DNA from: Candidatus Thorarchaeota archaeon
Lineage (GTDB): Archaea > Asgardarchaeota > Thorarchaeia > Thorarchaeales > Thorarchaeaceae
DNA length: 8,497 bases
Reading direction: 5' to 3'
NCBI GenBank assembly: GCA_004524595.1
Contig: SDOA01000149.1
Location: 1-8,497 of the forward strand
The first letter of the stretch is position 1; every line of letters starts with the position of its first letter. The notes below the pieces were generated by a model. It had not been told where the DNA came from and searched no databases. It saw only the letters and a program-made list of their open reading frames with translations. Positions 425-8,497 of the stretch are shown piece after piece. A program made the position numbers and the translations under genes.

Positions 425-779
425 TCAACACACTCCCTAAAGCGGTAATTAGCATATCTCCACTACTAATTAACCATTGAAATACCAACAAAATGGGTTT
501 GTAACTACCTAAAAAAAACATCGGGTTTCCGCTGTTCGGACTGGAAAAGTGCCGCGTTCATATTTTGTTGGAAAAGATACGGTAAATCATAATATAGCAA
601 CATCATTAACCACGAATCTTATCCCTAATCAGTTAAAATTCTGGAGCGTCCATCTCATGATTCTATCGAGGGAGTGATAATACATTGTACAATATAGCAA
701 CTCCTTTTGTATTAATGATATAGTGACTCTTAATTTCGCAATCCATTTGTGAGCGACTATATTGCTTGAGTAACCTTCC
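425..779. other. A/T-rich intergenic region with no supported gene
   Basis: About 355 bp between the zinc-finger gene start and repeat copy 1. I see no convincing coding frame on either strand. The right edge of the zinc-finger gene leader (425-470) holds its Shine-Dalgarno site. The 11-mer aatatagcaac occurs twice, at 591-601 and 691-701, exactly 100 nt apart, and ctatatt occurs in the opposite sense near 757-763. No tRNA or CRISPR structure was seen. Confidence 0.5.
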
Positions 780-890
780 GTGATTGGAAGGAAAATTTTC
801 TGTTCTGAGTGTCAGCCATATAGGCAAGAGAAACAGATGTAGTTAGTTTTCAAATCGAGAGAGGGTCTTCCTCTCTCCCTCACACTTTTT
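780..890 (+). repeat. Intergenic peptide repeat, copy 1 (divergent)
   Basis: From a GTG at 780 an uninterrupted frame runs to TAG at 840-842 and encodes VIGRKIFCSECQPYRQEKQM. The last eight residues (PYRQEKQM is shared from residue 13) are identical to the other copies, while the middle has diverged (GPEYL becomes CSECQ). The ATG found in other copies is ATT here. After the stop comes the conserved caaatcgagag tract and a perfect hairpin. The copy lies on the plus strand opposite the 3' end of the minus-strand methyltransferase. Confidence 0.75.
857..890 (+). terminator. Hairpin at 3' end of repeat copy 1, probable terminator
   Basis: GAGAGAGG (857-864) pairs perfectly with CCTCTCTC (870-877) around the 5-nt loop gtctt. 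A short T-run follows at 886-890. The methyltransferase stop codon (minus strand, 880-882) lies directly beside the stem, so it may end transcripts arriving from either side. Archaea often terminate on T-tracts without hairpins, so the terminator role is inferred. Confidence 0.5.
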
Positions 891-1425
891 GAACAATGAA
901 CATTCTATAAAGCGAGTTCACCTTTGGATATCTGATGTACTTATCTTCCAATACGATCCAGAAATTAGACTCATTCTCGAATATTGATTCCAGGATAGAT
1001 TCGGTAGTCTTTGACGTACTTACAAGAATACAGAGAACTGCACCAATCCGCATCTCATTCATTATTCGTTGAACAAATCTGATCTCCTTCTCACGTTCAC
1101 GTTTATAGAAATGAAGCATTGAATCAAGCAGGATGTAATCAAAGCTGGAATCAATTGGATATTCATAGATGTCCGCAATGACACCTCTCACGTTGAGATT
1201 GTTCTTCTTCGCCTCCCTTAGCATCTGCTCAATACCAATTTGAGAGATATCAACACCTGTGATTTCATAGCCCAGGCCAGCTAGAGCTAGTGCATCTCGT
1301 CCCTGTCCACATCCTAGGTCCAAGACCTTTCCTCTATCACTGTTTTCAGCAAAGAACTTGACCAAGTCTGGACCTGGATCTCCAAAATGATGTTCCTCTT
1401 CATAGTATTTGTCATACTTTACCAT
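880..1425 (-). CDS. Class I SAM-dependent methyltransferase
   Basis: This 181-aa protein should transfer a methyl group from S-adenosylmethionine; the acceptor cannot be read from the sequence. The Rossmann-fold signature is clear. Motif I, VLDLGCGQGRD, is at residues 34-44 with the SAM-binding glycines. The acidic residue ending strand 2 is D59 in ITGVDIS, an adenine-proximal acid is D85 in GVIADIYEYP, and motif IV-like FDYILLDSMLHF is at 95-106. The order and length fit small single-domain methyltransferases of the Methyltransf_11/25 and TehB-like type. No substrate-recognition domain is attached. The ATG start at 1425 is supported by GGTGAG (complement of 1431-1436) six nucleotides upstream. 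It is a single gene flanked by repeat copies 1 and 2. Methylation of a small molecule or a peptide are both open. Confidence 0.88.
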   Translation of the reverse strand: MVKYDKYYEEEHHFGDPGPDLVKFFAENSDRGKVLDLGCGQGRDALALAGLGYEITGVDISQIGIEQMLREAKKNNLNVRGVIADIYEYPIDSSFDYILLDSMLHFYKREREKEIRFVQRIMNEMRIGAVLCILVSTSKTTESILESIFENESNFWIVLEDKYIRYPKVNSLYRMFIVQKV

Positions 1426-1437
1426 GTAGACTCACCA

Positions 1438-1560
1438 ATGGTGTGTGTGCTTCTATTCATAAAGGTCATGGGTCGCGAGAACGTTGGGCCTTAGTTTTTG
1501 TCGTACAGGCAATAGAAACAGATGTAGTAATGGTTTTCAGATGAGAGAAGCTGATTTTGT
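1438..1560 (+). repeat. Intergenic peptide repeat, copy 2 (inactivated)
   Basis: The ATG at 1468 begins MGRE as in copy 7, but in-frame TAG codons occur at 1492-1494 and 1513-1515 before the usual TAG at 1525-1527. The region still aligns closely in nucleotides (tacaggcaatagaaacagat). An upstream in-frame ATG at 1438 would give a short hydrophobic leader (MVCVLLFIKV) before MGRE. The post-ORF tract is weakly conserved, with only a short AGAA/TTCT pairing. It abuts the 3' end of the minus-strand membrane-protein gene. It reads as a pseudogenised copy. Confidence 0.75.
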
Positions 1561-1570
1561 TCTAGAAGGA

Positions 1571-2434
1571 TTAAGGAGTCATTTGAACTTCTTTCTCATT
1601 CGTATCTGTTTCTTCCGAGAGAAGCTCCGGGGAGTTGAACGTCCCATGTGAGAGAGATAGTATGAACGCGTAGACAGATAGCACTATCAGAGGTATGTGG
1701 AGTATTCCATTCCAGAATAGCAAATCAGGGAACATGATGAAGTTTGTTAGGATATTGTAAAAGCTGATAATAACCCCGACCAGACTGGTCACTCTCAGTG
1801 TAACAATGTTGATGTTGGGATAGAAGATAATGAGGACTGAGAGGTATACAGGGGTCATCATACAGAAGGCTAAGCCTGCCTCGCCAGTCAGAAATAGGAG
1901 AGGATTGAGGTCCAACGCCATTGTTTCTGTATTGATGGGATACCAGAATGCCAGAATGGCTAATGGAATCACCCAAATCGTGGACAGGTCTCGCCGAGGA
2001 GTATCGAGAACATTCTTCTGAGCCACTGCCTCCCAGAACCAGGTCAATGCAACGATGAGGAACATGACCAGATTCACAGTCACTACAGCAAGTCCAAATT
2101 CCTCAGTGAAGGCAATACTCTGTAGAAACGCTACGAGGACATAGAAGACACCGACATAGACACTGAAGTATCGTGAGATCCTTGTTTTTAGGGTGAAGAC
2201 TAAGGCAATCATGAGAATCGCAAGTATCTTGAAGAGAGGAAAGAGAGGAGCCAGGTCATAGACTATTGCTTGGGAGAGCACAGCTCCTATCAACCACCCT
2301 GCCTGTTCAGAACCGACCGGCTCAGCAGTGAGAGGCGGAAGCATCTGGAGTAGCAGCAGTAGAAGAAAGAACCACCATCTACGTGTAACAATCTCAACTC
2401 TAGTTTGAATCCTTTCGATGTTTTCCAGTTTCAT
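1571..2434 (-). CDS. Multipass membrane protein of unknown function
   Basis: The 287-aa protein has about eight or nine hydrophobic segments, roughly at residues 20-37, 46-60, 66-82, 88-108, 113-134, 152-166, 186-204, 210-234 and 238-262. The tail from about 265 is acidic and hydrophilic (ELLSEETDTNEKE), and the N-terminus is basic. I recognise no family motif: no transporter signature, no ATP-binding site and no catalytic cluster. The start ATG has no strong Shine-Dalgarno site. A TATA-like tract on the minus strand (about 2464-2480, aaataaatagtata) lies 30-46 nt upstream, which would give a leader of roughly 15 nt. It is not clearly co-transcribed with the methyltransferase, because repeat copy 2 separates them by about 145 bp. 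The reading frame is intact and its composition is typical of an integral membrane protein, so it is very likely real. Confidence 0.8.
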   Translation of the reverse strand: MKLENIERIQTRVEIVTRRWWFFLLLLLLQMLPPLTAEPVGSEQAGWLIGAVLSQAIVYDLAPLFPLFKILAILMIALVFTLKTRISRYFSVYVGVFYVLVAFLQSIAFTEEFGLAVVTVNLVMFLIVALTWFWEAVAQKNVLDTPRRDLSTIWVIPLAILAFWYPINTETMALDLNPLLFLTGEAGLAFCMMTPVYLSVLIIFYPNINIVTLRVTSLVGVIISFYNILTNFIMFPDLLFWNGILHIPLIVLSVYAFILSLSHGTFNSPELLSEETDTNEKEVQMTP

Positions 2435-2554
2435 CTTGTTTACCAGCTTTCAGGCATTCTTTTAGTATACTATTTATTTGATGAACATAATAGATTGCCT
2501 ACCAACGCAAGATTCCGAAAAGATGATACCTTCACCAAGATTGTTCCTCAAGAG

Positions 2555-2650
2555 AGAGGCTTCGACCTGAATTTCTACCCTACAGGCAAGAGAAGCAGAT
2601 GTAATTATAATTCGAAGAAGGAGGCAGATGCTCCCTTTCTTACTTCTTTA
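2555..2650 (+). repeat. Intergenic peptide repeat, copy 3 (frameshifted)
   Basis: The 3' half, 2569-2604, encodes EFLPYRQEKQM followed by TAA. It differs from copy 4 over these 12 codons at five sites, all third positions. One base is missing near 2564 (ttcgacct instead of ttcggacct), which breaks the frame, and no conserved ATG survives upstream. An imperfect hairpin (GAAGAAGGAG 2614-2623 against CTCCCTTTCTT 2631-2641) and T-rich sequence follow. It lies between the divergent membrane-protein gene and the secreted-protein gene. Confidence 0.75.
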
Positions 2651-2725: not shown

Positions 2726-3283
2726 TTGTCATATAGAAAAAGCTGGGCGATCATCATTATCCTCGTTGCGGGTTTAGGTATCGGTGTATGTATGATTGCA
2801 GTTGGGGTCATCCAATTGTTACCGTCCAGCCCCACTCAGGTTCCACCACCTTTGTTCCCACCTGGGGATAATCCAGATATCATCGTTTCAAACAATCTTG
2901 AAATATGGGCTGAAGCAATATATTCCCAAGATTTTATGCCTGCCGTACCAGAGGAAGGACCTCCTTTTGGAACGATAATTTGGGTGAATGTAACAAATAC
3001 TGGAAACACTACTGTGAGTAACTTCGAAGCAGTTAGAACGACCATCTATTTTCATAACAATAGCATGCTGTTGGTCACACTCAAGTTGATTTTCGTTGGA
3101 GATTCAACGCAGATTAATCCAGGTGAGAGTTGTATTCTTGAGTTCACCAATGATAGAAGTAGTATTTTCTCTCCAACAATTGAGGAGGGAACAGTACTGT
3201 ATAGCAGAATCCTTACAAGATGGAGTGATGGTATAGAAGAAATACTAACGACTCCACCTTCTGCTCTATTCTATACATGGTGA
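2726..3283 (+). CDS. Membrane-anchored extracellular beta-sandwich-like protein
   Basis: This is a 185-aa protein. Residues 1-6 are basic (R4, K5), and 7-30 form one hydrophobic segment that acts as an uncleaved signal anchor. A proline-rich linker follows (about 33-50), then a polar domain (51-185) rich in beta-type sequence. The patterns VNVTNTGNTTVSNF (87-100) and INPGESCILEF (130-140) resemble the CARDB/APHP and Ig-like domains of archaeal surface proteins. Sequons at N88, N94 and N111 would allow N-glycosylation outside the cell. The start is TTG; no in-frame ATG precedes it after the TAA at 2708, and the next ATG (codon 23) would cut the anchor in half. TATA-like ttttaaat near 2687-2695 would place transcription start close to the TTG, implying a nearly leaderless mRNA. 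The role is unknown; a cell-surface protein is inferred. Confidence 0.78.
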   Translation: MSYRKSWAIIIILVAGLGIGVCMIAVGVIQLLPSSPTQVPPPLFPPGDNPDIIVSNNLEIWAEAIYSQDFMPAVPEEGPPFGTIIWVNVTNTGNTTVSNFEAVRTTIYFHNNSMLLVTLKLIFVGDSTQINPGESCILEFTNDRSSIFSPTIEEGTVLYSRILTRWSDGIEEILTTPPSALFYTW

Positions 3284-3329
3284 TGAATATTACCAAGTTC
3301 ATTCATACATCTAACTCTATCCTACCATC

Positions 3330-3389
3330 ATGGAAGGAAGCATTTTCGGACCTGAGTTCCTACCTTACAGGCAAGAGAAACAGATGTAG
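3330..3389 (+). CDS. Putative 19-aa peptide mini-gene in repeat copy 4
   Basis: The frame reads MEGSIFGPEFLPYRQEKQM then TAG. From residue 5 on it differs from copy 5 at five bases, all third codon positions and all synonymous. Its first residues (EGS) differ from the GRE of other copies. No Shine-Dalgarno site is evident. It lies 46 nt after the secreted-protein gene and 100 nt before the M3 peptidase start. Translation is unproven; a conserved C-terminal fragment of a longer gene is the alternative. Confidence 0.45.
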   Translation: MEGSIFGPEFLPYRQEKQM

Positions 3390-3405
3390 TTTCAACTTCC
3401 AAATC

Positions 3406-3437
3406 GAGAGGGTGAGTTCTCCTCTCTGTCCCTTTTA
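3406..3437 (+). terminator. Hairpin after repeat copy 4, possible terminator
   Basis: GAGAGG (3406-3411) pairs with CCTCTC (3421-3426) over a 9-nt loop, followed by the T-rich cccttttaaaa. It sits just upstream of, and merges into, the TATA-like box of the next gene. It would separate upstream transcripts from the peptidase promoter. Confidence 0.4.
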
Positions 3438-3442
3438 AAAAA
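3433..3442 (+). promoter_or_regulatory. TATA-like promoter of M3 peptidase 1
   Basis: TTTTAAAAAA is centred about 51 nt before the ATG. With the usual archaeal spacing, transcription would start near 3462-3466, leaving a leader of about 25 nt. The same box at the same distance precedes peptidase 3 (8306-8315), in an otherwise 92% identical leader. Confidence 0.5.
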
Positions 3443-3488
3443 CGTACACTTTTTACTCGGTTAGTACATCCACCTGTGGGTAATTGTT

Positions 3489-5270
3489 ATGGATGAGGAG
3501 CGGACATGGGACCTCTCAATCTTGGTTGAAGACACTTCTATTGAAGGAGTGACGAAAGCGACTGATTTAGCATTATCTGATTGCAAGAGTGCAATAACCA
3601 CCCTGCAGGGAGCACAGAAAGGAATTCAGGCGAAGCAGTTGGTAAAGCATTTCAAACAGGTTGAAAGTATTTTCGAGAGAATAGGTACCATTTCGGTATA
3701 TTCCTATTGTAAGCATGTGTCAGACACAAATGCTGAAGGCAGTCAGGTCTTAGGGTCACTATTCTACAGACTGACAAATGAAGGAGATGGGCAATATCGG
3801 TTATTCGAACAAATTCTTGGAAACATAGTAAAAGAGAACCATGAGATTTTAGAATCACCGGAGTTAGTAGACTACCGACACCGGCTTTACAAAAGCTGTC
3901 AGAAACTCCCATATTCACTAACACAGGTTGAGGAGGAGCTTATTGCAGAAAAGGATTCAAACGGTGTTTCAGCATTTGAACAACTTCAAAGTAGCTGGGT
4001 AGCTTCTCAATTGCTAGATGTTGATATTGAGGGAGAGAAAAAGCAGATCACAATGAACCAAGCTTTCTCGCTCTTATTGTCGGAGAATAGAGAAACCAGA
4101 GAGCAGGTTTCCAAAACATACTTTGGTTCATTTGCTAGAGATAAGTTGCTTCATACCACCGCACTGCGTACAATCTGTATGAATCACGTCCATATGACGA
4201 AGCGGCGAAATTGGCCGTCATACATGACTCAGAGTTTGATTGATCAAGATGTCGACGAAGAAACCATTTCTTCTCTTCTGAAGACACTTGAAGATGGAAC
4301 AGGGAGTGTTCAAAAATATGTTCGAATAAAAGCGAAATATTTAGGATACGACCAATTGCTTGGTTATGATCTGAGAGCTCCTTGGTTCTCAAAGACTCCG
4401 TGGAATCAAGATTGGTCAAGTGTGAAGACCACGGTCATCAGTGCATACGATGAGTTTGATGATGAGTTCGGGAAATATGTGAGGGGTCTTTTTACGAACC
4501 GACGTATCGATTCTGAGGATAGACCTGGACGAGCTGGATTGGGTTTTTGCTTCCCATGTTATGAGAAAAAGACGGCATTTGTATTCATCACATACAATGA
4601 CACTCTTAATGATGCGTACATCATTGCTCATGAACTTGGACATGGAATTCATAGTCACTATATAATGAGGCACAATAATTATCTCAATAGTGTCAACTTG
4701 TCAAGTTGTGTAGCTGAAACTGGTTCACTATTTGGTGAGATTCTATTTACAGAGCAGTTATTGAAAGAGTCTGACAATGATGAACTAAGACTGGAAGTGC
4801 TCGCGAGGGTCTTGGATAGATTCTACTCGATGACATTCTATATTGGATGTTGGGCATTCTTTGAACAGAACCTCTACAATGCAATAGAAAATGGAGAGGC
4901 TATTGATGTAGAAAGAGTCTGTGAGATTTGGAGGAATGTCAGACATAAGACATATGGTGATACCATAGAATGGACAGAAAATACAGAATTTGAGTGGGCG
5001 AGAATGGGTAATCTATTCATGTCGAATTATCGATTCTATAACTACAGCTATAGTTTTGCTCAGCTACTCGTATTTGCTCTCTATGAAGATTTCAAAAGAG
5101 GTGCATCTGACTTCAAAGAGAGGTTCAAGCGACTCTTGAGTAGAGGCGCTAGCATGAGTCCCAGAGAACAGATTGCAGAATTAGGTTTTGACATCACAAA
5201 GCCAGACTTTTGGACTCTTGGGATAAAACGAGCTGAACACTTTCTAGAGGACTTACAAAAATTACTCTAA
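3489..5270 (+). CDS. pepF: M3B-type metallo-oligoendopeptidase (PepF-like), copy 1
   Basis: This is a 593-aa zinc endopeptidase of family M3, a usual length for the oligoendopeptidase F branch. These enzymes cut short peptides in the cytoplasm and do not attack folded proteins. The zinc site is HELGH at residues 381-385 (zinc ligands H381 and H385, catalytic E382). The third ligand is E410 in CVAETGSLFGE. The conserved late tyrosine region, YNYSYSFAQLLV, starts at Y517 and probably supplies substrate-binding or transition-state tyrosines. The N-terminal WDLSILVEDTS matches the family's WDLS opening. There is no signal peptide. Over half the residues match peptidase 2 by eye, including TKRRxWPSYMTQSL and GYDLRAPWF. 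It starts at ATG after a TATA-like box; the Shine-Dalgarno match is weak (gtggg). Repeat copy 4 lies upstream and copy 5 begins 7 nt after the stop. The gene symbol is family-level only. Confidence 0.93.
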   Translation: MDEERTWDLSILVEDTSIEGVTKATDLALSDCKSAITTLQGAQKGIQAKQLVKHFKQVESIFERIGTISVYSYCKHVSDTNAEGSQVLGSLFYRLTNEGDGQYRLFEQILGNIVKENHEILESPELVDYRHRLYKSCQKLPYSLTQVEEELIAEKDSNGVSAFEQLQSSWVASQLLDVDIEGEKKQITMNQAFSLLLSENRETREQVSKTYFGSFARDKLLHTTALRTICMNHVHMTKRRNWPSYMTQSLIDQDVDEETISSLLKTLEDGTGSVQKYVRIKAKYLGYDQLLGYDLRAPWFSKTPWNQDWSSVKTTVISAYDEFDDEFGKYVRGLFTNRRIDSEDRPGRAGLGFCFPCYEKKTAFVFITYNDTLNDAYIIAHELGHGIHSHYIMRHNNYLNSVNLSSCVAETGSLFGEILFTEQLLKESDNDELRLEVLARVLDRFYSMTFYIGCWAFFEQNLYNAIENGEAIDVERVCEIWRNVRHKTYGDTIEWTENTEFEWARMGNLFMSNYRFYNYSYSFAQLLVFALYEDFKRGASDFKERFKRLLSRGASMSPREQIAELGFDITKPDFWTLGIKRAEHFLEDLQKLL

Positions 5271-5277
5271 GATCGTC

Positions 5278-5355
5278 ATGGGTCGGGAAATTTTTGGACC
5301 TGAATTCCTGCCTTACAGGCAAGAGAAGCAAATGTTGTTTAGTTATTCAGCTTGA
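5278..5355 (+). CDS. Putative 25-aa peptide mini-gene in repeat copy 5
   Basis: The ATG lies 7 nt after the peptidase 1 stop, so translation could be coupled. It encodes MGREIFGPEFLPYRQEKQM plus LFSYSA, because the usual TAG is TTG here. Over the 19 shared codons it differs from copy 7 at nine bases, eight of them in third positions; the only amino-acid change is F/Y at residue 10. This is the strongest single indication that the repeat is translated. Upstream in-frame codons contain no start before a stop at 5245. Confidence 0.5.
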   Translation: MGREIFGPEFLPYRQEKQMLFSYSA

Positions 5356-5388
5356 GATAGGGTCATCCTCTCTCCACTACTCTTTTTT
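5354..5388 (+). terminator. Hairpin plus T6 run, terminator for peptidase 1 / peptide 5
   Basis: GAGATAGG (5354-5361) pairs with CCTCTCTC (5367-5374) with one mismatch and a 5-nt loop. TTTTTT follows at 5383-5388. The T-run overlaps the last lysine codons of the minus-strand acetyltransferase, whose stop is at 5377-5379. It is well placed to end plus-strand transcripts between convergent genes. Confidence 0.6.
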
Positions 5389-6261
5389 CACCCAAGCAAA
5401 CGTTTGGTGAATGGAATTTGTAGTAAATCCGAGATCTTTGTAGAGATTGAATGCGGGACCACCGTTCACTGAAGACAACGAGATGACCTTCATCTTTGAA
5501 TGGACCTTTGCTGCATCAATAAGAGAATGACTCACAATAGTACGTCCAAATCCCTGACCTCTAAATGATGGAAGAATGGCAACAAGCCCAACTTGTCCAT
5601 GACCATCCTGATCTTTTACCAGACAAGACCCAATCGGATCTTCGTCATGTGTGAGGATACTGAAATGCCAGGCATCGTTCACTCTAGTCAATGTCTTTGA
5701 ACAGGCATCCAGACTCCCCACTTGTTCTTGATACTGCTCTGTGAATGGATGTCCAACGAAACTCTCAAAGAGCATCTTAGCAACCAGTTCCTTCATGTCT
5801 TCACTATACTGGACAATCTGGAAGTCTTCAGGAGGTTCACTTTGAGAGATTAATTCGATATCTGCTCGTTTTATTGACATATCTGCATATTCGACCATTG
5901 AAAATCCAGAGGATGTAAGAAAGGCATGCTTGGAACTTGGTACATTTTTTCCAGAGATACGAATCACAGGGTGGATCTCCTTCAGGTGTTGAAAGATATC
6001 ACTAAATAATTCCCCCCACACTTCGATAGGACAATGAATTGAAGTGATCTCCTTCAGAGGTCGTCGGAATGCCCCAAACCCATAGGTGGCTGTATCACCA
6101 TTAACTCCTGCAAGTAAGATGAGGTTTCCATTTTCTAAGTCTTTCAATAGATTGGTCTTGATTTGATCTAACTCATTTTCATCTTGGGTTACAGTTCTTA
6201 GGGACTCATCAACAAGATGTTCAATGATTGAGAATCCTTCAGAATCAATCTCTTGAATCAT
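5377..6261 (-). CDS. Double-domain GNAT family N-acetyltransferase
   Basis: The 294-aa protein should move an acetyl group from acetyl-CoA to an amine; the acceptor is not evident. The C-terminal GNAT domain (about 146-294) has the acetyl-CoA pyrophosphate-binding motif A at residues 224-239 (VGLVAILPSFRGQGFG, R/Q-x-x-G-x-G form), and N272-LYKDLGF typical of motif B. The N-terminal half (about 1-133) looks like a second, degenerate GNAT fold: it has NGDTATYGFGAF-like core strands and a SSKHAFLTSSGFSMVEY stretch matching the end of a GNAT domain, but no intact R-x-x-G-x-G. Tandem GNATs with one inactive half are known. The ATG start at 6261 has GGTG about 7 nt upstream. The gene is opposite in strand to its neighbours and sits between repeat copies 5 and 6, splitting the peptidase array. 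A peptide or amino-acid substrate is only inferred from context. Confidence 0.88.
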   Translation of the reverse strand: MIQEIDSEGFSIIEHLVDESLRTVTQDENELDQIKTNLLKDLENGNLILLAGVNGDTATYGFGAFRRPLKEITSIHCPIEVWGELFSDIFQHLKEIHPVIRISGKNVPSSKHAFLTSSGFSMVEYADMSIKRADIELISQSEPPEDFQIVQYSEDMKELVAKMLFESFVGHPFTEQYQEQVGSLDACSKTLTRVNDAWHFSILTHDEDPIGSCLVKDQDGHGQVGLVAILPSFRGQGFGRTIVSHSLIDAAKVHSKMKVISLSSVNGGPAFNLYKDLGFTTNSIHQTFAWVKKE

Positions 6262-6271
6262 TCAAAACACC

Positions 6272-6376
6272 ATGAGTCTAGTACGAATACTTCATCAAAA
6301 ACAATTCGTTATGGCTCGTGAGGTCTTCGGACCTGAGTATCTTAACTCAAAACCGTTCAATTTTTTACAAAGATAG
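6272..6376 (+). CDS. Hybrid mini-ORF from truncated repeat copy 6
   Basis: The conserved part MAREVFGPEYL starts at ATG 6311 and is then replaced by an unrelated tail (NSKPFNFLQR, stop at 6374-6376). An in-frame upstream ATG at 6272 gives a 34-aa version. Within the conserved 11 codons only two residues differ from copy 7 (G2A, I5V). The 3' half of the repeat, including its hairpin, is missing, as if replaced by the leader of peptidase 2. It may be a deletion relic rather than a gene. Confidence 0.25.
   Translation: MSLVRILHQKQFVMAREVFGPEYLNSKPFNFLQR
6305..6343 (+). repeat. Intergenic peptide repeat, copy 6 (3' truncated)
   Basis: Only the first part of the repeat is present: ttcgtt, ATG and ten more conserved codons, ending at CTT 6341-6343. 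The remaining codons, the post-ORF tract and the hairpin found in copies 4, 5 and 7 are absent, and the peptidase 2 start follows 58 nt later. Confidence 0.75.
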
Positions 6377-6400
6377 AATCTTGTTCTATGGGTTTTCAAT

Positions 6401-8182
6401 GTGGAAGAGGATAGGAAATGGGATTTATCAAAACTTGTGAAAGATACATCAATTGAAGGACTCACAAAGGAGTCGGATCTATTCTTCACTAAGGTGCAAA
6501 CGAAGATAGATGGATTACGAGAGAATCAGAAGGGAATAGGAGCAAAGCAGCTAGCTAACTACCTCATGGAAATAGAGGATACAGCAGAAGGAATCTACAC
6601 TATTGCTGCTTACTCATATTGCAAGTATGTATCGGACACAACATTGAATGAGAGTCAAGCTCTCATCGCCTTGTTTAGTAAATGCCGGAACAAGGGGAAC
6701 GAGTTACTAGAAGGCACACTCAATCAGATCCTTGGAAATGTTTTACTAGAACAGCCATCAATAATTGAAAGTCCAGAGATAGAAGAGTACAAACACCTTC
6801 TTGAACGTGCGAGCAAGGCACTCCCACACATTCTCTCACCCGTTGAAGAAGATCTAATCACCGAGAAGGATGCGAATGGAATCTCTGCAATGTATGACCT
6901 CTATCAGAGCTGGATTGGGTCACAAATGATTGATGTAGAGATTGATGGTGAGAAGAAATCAATCTCAGCCAATCACGCATTCTCACTGTTGATGGATGAA
7001 AAAAGAGAAACTAGAAAGTCTGTATCAGATGCGTATTTTGGATCTTTTGCAAGAGATAAGCTACTCCATGTCACTGCATTTCGTGCAATCTGTTCAGACC
7101 ATATCAAAATGACCAAACGACGAAAATGGCCTTCATATATGACTCAAAGCCTTAATGCCCAGGATGTAGATAAATCTACAATCGACTCCCTTCTAAAGAC
7201 TATAGAGACTGATTCTGAGAGCTATCAGAAATACATCAAATTGAAGGCTGAGTATTTTGGACAAGAGAGATTGCAAGGTTATGATTTGAGAGCTCCGTGG
7301 TTTCGGAAACCAGTTTGGAATAAAGACTGGTCAGAAGTGAAATCATCAGTATTTCAAGCATATCAGCAGTTTGATGAAGAGATTGGCTCATTCATTGATA
7401 CGCTATTCAGGAATCATCAGGTTGACTCTAAGGACAGGCCTGGGAGAGCAAGTACTGCCTTCGCATTTCCAGTTTTTGCTAAGAAGTCCTCGTTTGTATT
7501 TGTTACATACAATGGCACACTGAATGATGCATACATTCTGGCACATGAACTCGGACATAGTGTTCAAAGTTACTTCGCTGATACAAATCAACGGTTTCTA
7601 AATGCAGACTACTCACAATGCATAGGGGAAACGGGTTCTATCTTTGGTGAACTTCTATTTACTGAACAACTATTGAAGGAATGCAAGAGTGACGAGATGA
7701 GAGTAGAGATATTAGCCAAGGTACTAGACAGATTTTACCAATGGACATTTCATATCGGACTTTATGCGCTCTTCGAGCAGGGAATTTACGAGTTCCTCGA
7801 ATCTGGAGGTTATCTTGATACAGAGAAAGTGTTGGAGATATGGAGAGAGAGAAGGCAAGCTGTTTTTGGGAATACTGTCGATTGGAGTAACAACCTAGAC
7901 TACGATTGGGTAAGGTGGAATCAATTATTCATGCCGAATTTTAGATTCTACAATTACAGCTATAGTTTTGCACAACTCCTAGTCTTTGCACTCTACGATG
8001 ACTACAAAGAAAATCCAACTGATTTCAGCAAACGGTTCAAATTACTACTGAGTAGAGGAAGTAGCATGAGTCCGAAAGATCAGATTGCAGAAATGGGGTA
8101 TGATATTGCAAAACCAGACTTCTGGAAAATAGGAATCAGACGAGCGGTAACTCTGACCGATGAATTGAAGAAATTGTTATGA
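6401..8182 (+). CDS. pepF: M3B-type metallo-oligoendopeptidase (PepF-like), copy 2
   Basis: This 593-aa paralogue of peptidase 1 has the same expected activity on short cytoplasmic peptides. The zinc site is HELGH at 382-386 with E383 as general base, and the third ligand is E410 in CIGETGSIFGE, one residue closer than in copy 1. The tyrosine-rich region YNYSYSFAQLLV again starts at Y517. The opening is MEEDRKWDLSKLVKDTS. The start is GTG; no in-frame ATG lies in the short upstream stretch. A T-rich box (ttttttaca, about 6361-6369) would place transcription start roughly 10 nt before it, so the mRNA is almost leaderless. Its leader is unlike those of peptidases 1 and 3, so regulation may differ. 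All catalytic residues are present in both full copies, so both are probably active. Substrate-contacting regions vary, which suggests divided specificity. The gene symbol is family-level. Confidence 0.92.
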   Translation: MEEDRKWDLSKLVKDTSIEGLTKESDLFFTKVQTKIDGLRENQKGIGAKQLANYLMEIEDTAEGIYTIAAYSYCKYVSDTTLNESQALIALFSKCRNKGNELLEGTLNQILGNVLLEQPSIIESPEIEEYKHLLERASKALPHILSPVEEDLITEKDANGISAMYDLYQSWIGSQMIDVEIDGEKKSISANHAFSLLMDEKRETRKSVSDAYFGSFARDKLLHVTAFRAICSDHIKMTKRRKWPSYMTQSLNAQDVDKSTIDSLLKTIETDSESYQKYIKLKAEYFGQERLQGYDLRAPWFRKPVWNKDWSEVKSSVFQAYQQFDEEIGSFIDTLFRNHQVDSKDRPGRASTAFAFPVFAKKSSFVFVTYNGTLNDAYILAHELGHSVQSYFADTNQRFLNADYSQCIGETGSIFGELLFTEQLLKECKSDEMRVEILAKVLDRFYQWTFHIGLYALFEQGIYEFLESGGYLDTEKVLEIWRERRQAVFGNTVDWSNNLDYDWVRWNQLFMPNFRFYNYSYSFAQLLVFALYDDYKENPTDFSKRFKLLLSRGSSMSPKDQIAEMGYDIAKPDFWKIGIRRAVTLTDELKKLL

Positions 8183-8262
8183 TTTTGAAGTTGTTCTTCG
8201 TCATGGGTCGCGAAATCTTCGGACCTGAGTATCTTCCGTACAGGCAAGAGAAGCAGATGTAG
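8179..8262 (+). CDS. Putative 27-aa (or 19-aa) peptide mini-gene in repeat copy 7
   Basis: The 19-residue core MGREIFGPEYLPYRQEKQM starts at ATG 8203 and ends at TAG 8260-8262. An in-frame ATG at 8179 overlaps the TGA stop of peptidase 2 (ATGA) and would add MILKLFFV, a short hydrophobic leader, with translation coupled to the peptidase. Other copies do not conserve this extension, so the ATG at 8203 may be the real start. The ORF is intact and nearly synonymous with copies 4 and 5. Confidence 0.5.
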   Translation: MILKLFFVMGREIFGPEYLPYRQEKQM

Positions 8263-8315
8263 TTTCAACTTCCAAATCGAGAGGGTGGGTTCTCCGCTCT
8301 TTCACTTTTAAAAAA
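8196..8315 (+). repeat. Intergenic peptide repeat, copy 7
   Basis: A full-length copy between peptidases 2 and 3, with the conserved post-ORF tract. The hairpin GAGAGG (8279-8284) / CCGCTC (8294-8299) has one mismatch and is weaker than in copy 4. The sequence continues at 92% identity with the copy 4 region into the next peptidase gene. Confidence 0.85.
8306..8315 (+). promoter_or_regulatory. TATA-like promoter of M3 peptidase 3
   Basis: TTTTAAAAAA lies at the same distance from the ATG as the box of peptidase 1, in a conserved 99-bp leader. Predicted transcription start is about 8335-8339. Confidence 0.5.
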
Positions 8316-8361
8316 CCTACACTTTTTACTCGGTTAATACATCCACTTGTGGGTCATTGTT

Positions 8362-8497
8362 ATGGATGAGGAGCGGACATGGGACCTCTCGGTCTTGGTT
8401 GAAGACACCTCTATCGAGGGAATGAAACGAGCTGCTGATTCAAGAATCTCAGTACTCAAGGATGCTGTAGAAGATCTGAGAAGCGTAGCAAGTGAAC
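8362..8497 (+). CDS. pepF: M3B-type oligoendopeptidase, copy 3 (5' end only)
   Basis: This gene is cut by the window end after 45 codons (MDEERTWDLSVLVEDTSIEG, then MKRAADSRISVLKDAVEDL). The first 20 residues are the same as in peptidase 1 except I11V, and carry the WDLS family opening. After residue 20, identity to peptidase 1 drops to about 6 of 25. The catalytic region lies outside the window, so the family is inferred from the shared N-terminus, the identical leader and its place in the array. The real gene could still be a pseudogene or a fusion. Confidence 0.75.
   Translation, partial: MDEERTWDLSVLVEDTSIEGMKRAADSRISVLKDAVEDLRSVASE

Follow-up and report, generated by a model that had tools for sequence, protein, structure and literature searches.

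Introduction

Integron attC sites carry the motif RYYYAAC at one end and GTTRRRY at the other, and cis-mobilizable elements (CIMEs) consist of att-flanked cargo that has no recombinase of its own and accretes in tandem at one gene end. Asgard archaea possess many genes of mixed origin, the acquisition of which is debated. They are described as enriched in integrons, and arrays without a nearby integrase (CALINs) are described as common (Ghaly et al. 2022, PMC9668308); the terms 'thorarch' and 'acyl-CoA' do not occur in the main text of that article. Tandem integrations at the 3' ends of protein genes are likewise known for archaeal elements (PMC6563490). In the literature searched, a body from which subscription journals and preprints were largely absent and which was judged by titles, abstract openings and selected passages, no description was found of cassette arrays derived from an acyl-CoA dehydrogenase gene (acd). 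Here we analyze a contig of 8,497 nucleotides from a Thorarchaeota archaeon (the window) and propose, with a probability of roughly 0.74, that a repeat representing the tail of acd serves as a recombination site through which unrelated genes are strung into integron-like cassette arrays in the Thorarchaeota.

Results and Discussion

Repeat copies and proposed cassette genes in the window

A profile model, in which the repeat is numbered from m1 to m112, identifies seven full or partial copies in the window, every one of them on the + strand, and the genes lying among these sites are found on both strands. The model was seeded with copies carrying an exact core and widened once, and it therefore favours copies with that core. 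The features are as follows.

779..888, + strand: site 1, full length (VIGRKIFCSECQPYRQEKQM and stop), left half worn, hairpin GAGAGAGG; profile match
880..1425, - strand: methyltransferase cassette gene (Methyltransf_25 and related Pfam families)
1465..1552, + strand: site 2, decayed, with stops in frame
1571..2434, - strand: cassette gene without Pfam match; homologues on array contigs of genomes G030 (93% at the amino acid level) and G034 (71%)
2550..2649, + strand: site 3, PEFLPYRQEKQM and stop, left end diverged
2726..3283, + strand: cassette gene without Pfam match; homologues on array contigs of G035 (64% at the amino acid level) and G011 (59%)
3327..3436, + strand: site 4, IMEGSIFGPEFLPYRQEKQM and stop
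3489..5270, + strand: M3 family oligoendopeptidase cassette gene; its G037 homologue sits directly before a site
5274..5385, + strand: site 5, VMGREIFGPEFLPYRQEKQM without stop, continuing as MLFSYSA and stop
5377..6261, - strand: GNAT acetyltransferase cassette gene; its G013 homologue (44% at the amino acid level) is the first gene after acd
6307..6342, + strand: site 6, left half only (m1-36)
6401..8182, + strand: second M3 oligoendopeptidase cassette gene
8199..8309, + strand: site 7, intact and full (VMGREIFGPEYLPYRQEKQM and stop), core at 8239-8259
8362..8497, + strand: start only of a third M3 peptidase cassette, known by its DNA identity to the first M3 gene

Three of the seven copies are thus worn or cut, namely those at 1465 (stops), 2550 (diverged left end) and 6307 (left half only). 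The G030 copy of the cassette that follows site 2 is 94% identical to the window from position 1536 onward, a position equivalent to about m41 of the G030 site. Within the window, 8215-8465 repeats 3342-3592 directly with 85% identity. Three paralogous M3 oligoendopeptidase cassettes lie close together (3489-5270, 6401-8182 and 8362-8497), the first two segments being about 66% identical to each other. Searches of the window against Rfam, for tRNAs and for plasmids returned no match.

The repeat as the tail of acd

The repeat of about 112 bp duplicates the end of acd on the 3' side, comprising its last 20 or so codons, the stop and a 3' hairpin, and the peptide that it would encode is the C-terminus of the acd product. 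In the profile, m2-61 correspond to the frame VMAREIFGPEYLPYRQEKQM, m62-64 to the stop and approximately m80-103 to the hairpin, after which T-runs follow. In G012 and G006 an ORF, of 412 and 414 residues respectively, terminates within the array's first repeat, and Pfam identifies the two ORFs as acyl-CoA dehydrogenases, with C-terminal ends KIVMGREIFGPEYLPYRQEKQK and KIVMGREIFGPECLPYRQEKQM, respectively. Of the 47 genomes of the family, 23 contain an acd gene (E<=1e-100), and all 20 acd ends recovered match the repeat model; among the array copies listed, homology to acd begins abruptly at about ATCGTCATGG. The hairpin belongs to the gene's own 3' end: measured against mononucleotide shuffles, 19 acd ends have a mean folding z-score of -3.06 (74% below -2) and 70 array copies one of -1.99 (46% below -2), and the stem sequences of acd vary from lineage to lineage. 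Flanking direct repeats that reproduce the 3' end of the host gene, a feature of elements integrated at gene 3' ends, are present.

Arrays at acd and elsewhere

Downstream sequence of 1.5 kb or more is available for 15 acd loci, and by hand tally ten of them carry further copies. The next site lies within 3.6 kb of acd at nine loci (G001, G003, G006, G010, G011, G012, G013, G027 and G030), the nearest one in G006 and G013 being a weak partial match with stronger ones farther on, and at 13.6 kb in G037; at G015, G017, G018, G021 and G044 no second site occurs within 8-18 kb. The array survey covered 61 stretches with 216 site matches (214 after dropping repeats from overlapping stretches). Neighbouring sites are co-oriented in 154 of 155 pairs (115 of 116 when weak matches are excluded), and the ORFs of at least 80 aa between them are found in sense (79) and antisense (123). 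The gap between sites has a median of 1,369 bp (115 gaps), with segments reaching 13.6 kb, and the cargo is diverse, 133 array proteins matching 160 Pfam families, each of them represented by two proteins at most. Inspection by eye reveals no clear increase of decay with distance from acd. Closely related acd loci cease to be similar beyond the end of the gene, the pair G012/G013 already some 60 bases before m1, whereas the array-free pair G043/G044 is alike for about 180 bases from m1.

Several peculiarities of these loci may be recorded separately. An ORF of 3,068 residues fills one 9-kb inter-site segment of G012 (L061:7438-16644) and, supposing that it is a cassette, would be an exceptionally large one. 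In G027 (L115:1850-2647), a homologue of the gene found just upstream of acd in G012, G037, G036 and others lies directly after the far end of the array, indicating that the G027 locus has been rearranged. A conserved gene block is flanked by sites in several genomes (L066:7859-11938, L068:4544-9610, L132:2064-7134 and L146:2194-7327). Inspection of its protein sequences by eye identifies a sugar-metabolism cluster, which led us to discard the 5-kb block common to several array contigs as a carrier element. The block represents a second chromosomal gathering place of sites.

Recurrence of segments and location of their boundaries

Whole inter-site segments recur between genomes. A comparison of 148 segments gave 13 pairs in which the similarity covers 96% or more of the shorter member, with identities of 76-99% (for instance 94% for G012/G013, 93% for G003/G001 and 84% for G006/G009); an inverted pair is listed in addition, and a 375-bp segment is present twice in G012, once in G013 and also inside a longer segment of G004. 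Homology profiles were drawn for 11 pairs. About six of them show strong homology up to the cassette end and through the left half of the downstream site, followed by a fall in the right half of that site; about six show it strong in the right half of the upstream site and not in the left flank of the latter. About five profiles are muddled, several through truncated sites. The clearest pairs hence have their boundaries within sites and place the exchange in or near the core TACAGGCAAGAGAARCAGATG. The ends of incomplete copies tend to lie near the core, left-only half-sites ending at m34-44 in 15 of 29 cases (P 0.006 against an even spread) and right-only half-sites starting at m36-52 in 18 of 23 (P 0.012 against an even spread).

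Five indels of whole segments were examined. The best case is a block of 6.8 kb that G012 has and G013 lacks, a single site being left in the latter. This site looks clearly hybrid: its left half and core are 98% and 95% like the first site of the G012 block, and its right half and flank are nearer to the last one (73 and 78 versus 53 and 46). A weaker hybrid is seen at one G009 site, where the G006 sequence is longer by 4.4 kb, with flanks of 86 and 87% and site halves of 70 versus 62 and 76 versus 59. The other three indels display no clear hybrid site.

Several other left-only copies end at m61-62, which is caused by a separate insert of about 93 bp. This second repeat, with a 17-bp palindrome (GTATAGTTGAACTATAC), lies inside the core of some sites and is present in 10 of 47 genomes. 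It was noted at L002:1183-1275 (- strand), where it stands between two copies of GAGAARCAGATG, and in L154, L155, L156, L157, L163 and L164; it occurs without a recognised site in L162, L166 and L169. Possible identities are a small insertion element and a second module for recombination.

Distribution and search for a recombinase

The exact 21-base core pattern occurs at 25 loci in approximately 85,000 species genomes, and 24 of these belong to the Thorarchaeota; the remaining one, in Marinilactibacillus, looks like a chance match. The repeat is present in all 13 Thorarchaeota genomes behind the core loci (DNA search, E<=10, the best listed matches being far stronger), and in 26 of the 47 genomes of the family (E<=1e-3, the sole G044 match being its acd). 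Across the phylum, 27 of 227 genomes carry it (E<=1e-6), and 26 of the 27 coincide with the family-level set. Viral contigs yielded no match to the exact core pattern. Sites occur also away from acd, and in genomes in which no acd was found. An example of the latter is G019, a genome with a 3.16-Mb contig: it has five sites but yields neither an acd at E<=1e-100 nor any of the four recombinase-related families considered below, and its array may be a relic.

Among the 47 genomes, PF00589 (Phage_integrase) is found in 18, PF00239 (Resolvase) in 14, PF01548 in six and PF16795 in none, and none of these candidates tracks the arrays. By hand tally of assemblies that may be incomplete, both PF00589 and PF00239 are missing from 13 of the 26 genomes with sites. 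On the acd-array contigs examined no PF00589 match is listed except on G012:C51, where it lies some 20 kb from the sites and no acd was found. Conversely, no site is present within 15 loci around such matches, no PF00589 match falls inside the arrays of the nine genomes searched, and no recombinase figures among the first 25 of the 160 Pfam families of the 133 array proteins.

Proposed mechanism and its alternatives

Under the model favoured here, in which site-specific recombination is the simplest mechanism, a cassette would consist of one or a few unrelated genes between a right half-site in front (YRQEKQM-stop, 3' UTR, hairpin and T-run) and a left half-site behind (codons IVMAREIFGPEYLP). 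Recombination of two sites, with exchange inside the core, would lead to the gain or loss of whole cassettes, the entry point being the site at acd or one within the array. Insertion at acd would leave the gene intact, the incoming right half providing its last seven codons, the stop and the terminator-like hairpin, and repeated insertion would generate arrays of sites in a single direction with genes on either strand between them. We infer that a site-specific recombinase acts on these sites, that cassettes circulate as circles and that acd is the primary entry point; the way in which cassettes first came by their acd-derived left arms would likewise have to be inferred.

Several observations speak against this model, and the evidence for it comes from fragmented metagenome assemblies. 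Left arms are nearer to the host's own acd than to those of other genomes (n=49, with a mean rank fraction of 0.27), a likeness that site-specific exchange leaves unexplained and that is hardly present in right arms (0.46). In G001, G006, G011, G037 and, slightly, G030, right arms show a greater distance to the acd of their own genome than to other acds, and the acd tails of G001, G011, G037 and G030 differ from the sites of their arrays, with the first three weighing against the model. To these must be added the lack of a linked recombinase, the absence of PF00589 and PF00239 from half of the site-bearing genomes, the three indels of five without a clear hybrid, the muddled profiles of about five cassette pairs of 11, the five acd loci without a second site in 8-18 kb and the sites located away from acd or in genomes, such as G019, in which no acd was found.

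The main rival is homologous recombination, which would need no dedicated enzyme and would shuffle the segments lying between scattered acd-tail copies. It would produce precise indels and hybrid sites of identical appearance, its exchanges would also fall in the region of exchange observed, which is the best conserved part of the site, and it would accord with the absence of the tested recombinase families from half of the site-bearing genomes. Nevertheless, 51 adjacent pairs of full-length sites average only 68% identity, with a longest identical run of 14 bases in the median (range 5-36), half-sites joined near the core to unrelated DNA are not expected from such a process, and the first origin of the copies is left unexplained, so that we regard it as distinctly unlikely. 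Far less probable is a MITE-like repeat, small, transposable and non-autonomous, that contains the acd tail by chance. The copies are indeed multiple, intergenic and often truncated, and the isolated sites of G039 would suit such an element, but MITEs insert in either orientation and the part that recurs here is the DNA between the copies; the co-orientation of 154 of 155 adjacent pairs and the position of the cassette boundaries, inside the copies in the clearest pairs, led us to reject it.

Codon-position drift in the repeat

The sequence-only reading of the window had taken the synonymous drift of the copies as the mark of an unannotated family of translated micro-peptides. Our recounts agree with its figures: the frames at 5278 and 8203 differ at nine of 57 bases, eight of them third positions (binomial P for at least eight of nine, 0.00097, against the 0.001 estimated by hand), and all five differences are third-position both between the frames at 3330 and 5278 over codons 5-19 and between the copies at 2540 and 3330 over the last 12 codons plus stop. 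Across all 19 codons, however, the frames at 3330 and 5278 differ at 12 bases, of which four, in codons 2-4, are not third positions, meaning that the range chosen was a favourable one. The frame at 5278, furthermore, lacks a stop behind QM and continues as MGREIFGPEFLPYRQEKQMLFSYSA to a later one.

Across genomes the third-position bias holds and is much stronger than in the window. Over the first 13 codons of 71 gapless array copies, the mean pairwise difference is 0.195, 0.189 and 0.537 at codon positions 1, 2 and 3 (p = 5e-5 by permutation, the lowest value attainable with 20,000 shuffles), and the same measure on acd itself gives 0.170, 0.117 and 0.625; the right-hand codons (m41-61) are third-biased as well, but affected by the seed pattern. 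Changes at eight two-fold third positions are mostly synonymous (transitions to transversions 96:10), those at six four-fold third positions run 37:100, and the Glu/Asp column m31, counted apart, stands at 13:19, with Asp for Glu common. A recombinase merely blind to third positions is ruled out by this contrast between two-fold sites, Glu/Asp column excluded, and four-fold ones. All 22 third-position variants common to at least six left arms are also present in acd, which, together with the code-aware changes, implies that the variation arose in a translated gene. The divergence under protein-coding selection perceived in the window is consequently upheld, and it fits descent from acd tails, of which we take the array copies to be snapshots; what falls away is the micro-peptide family, the peptide being the C-terminus of acd.

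The copies in the arrays are decaying. Only 62 of the 106 that span the frame keep it from start to stop; the other 44 are broken by loss of the terminal stop (17), indels (17) or internal stops (10), and many further copies are half-sites. The putative start codon ends in G in 60 of the 71 gapless copies, and the acd column varies likewise (14 of 20), while the Val codon preceding it is kept, as part of the acd frame. Changes since orthologous cassettes split amount to 9:13:20 over the three codon positions, a small sum made by hand over six pairs of at least 84% identity that are not all independent, and to 29:35:75 when all pairs are counted. The closest third of copy pairs is third-biased (13:13:52), a figure that alone would also fit constraint in place, and the neutrality of rare variants is hard to read because common variants nearly fill the third-position slots. 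Even though the drift is code-aware and its bias may linger weakly in the few changes after cassette divergence, an intergenic micro-peptide family under selection on its peptide is barely credible in the face of the broken frames, the unremarkable start codon, the half-sites and the identity of the peptide with the end of acd, and translation might at most be conceivable for a few intact copies. Coding-type drift in an intergenic repeat can thus be inherited from a gene tail, which constitutes a trap for small-protein searches.

Comparison with known systems

The acd arrays resemble integrons and CALINs in that diverse genes are split by a single type of site in a single orientation, and they resemble integrons in that cassettes recur at different places (PMC9668308). 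Of the traits of integrons, co-oriented recombination sites between cassettes are found in 154 of 155 pairs. For another trait, the gain or loss of a whole cassette that leaves one hybrid site, one clear and one weaker case were seen among five, the other three showing no clear hybrid. Unlike integrons, the site derives from the tail of acd, and the attC motif pair is absent from all 71 gapless array sites searched together with their flanks (mean of 0.6 after shuffling); both strands carry genes, the segments are of greater length (1.4 kb in the median, 13.6 kb at most), an integrase linked to the arrays was not seen and the head of the array is a metabolic gene rather than intI-attI. On the tests made, therefore, the acd arrays work like an integron or CALIN and yet are members of neither, having no attC motif pair and no linked integrase. 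That they are an integron equivalent of separate origin, driven by a recombinase outside the tested tyrosine and serine families and rebuilding a host metabolic gene at each insertion, we put forward tentatively, as a rather unlikely reading.

The integrative elements of archaea, for example those of the Thaumarchaeota, are alike in targeting the 3' end of a protein gene and restoring its frame, but they carry an integrase or casposase of their own (PMC6563490), whereas the units of acd arrays are single genes or small groups, none of them seen with an integrase and many in tandem. In having cargo flanked by sites, without its own recombinase and in tandem at one gene end, acd arrays are CIME-like; their units are far more numerous and smaller than CIMEs, and a parent element was not identified. 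If the model is correct, the stacking of single genes behind one host gene of the Thorarchaeota would be a concrete and testable route of gene gain, and acd arrays would represent a second way of building an integron-like array.
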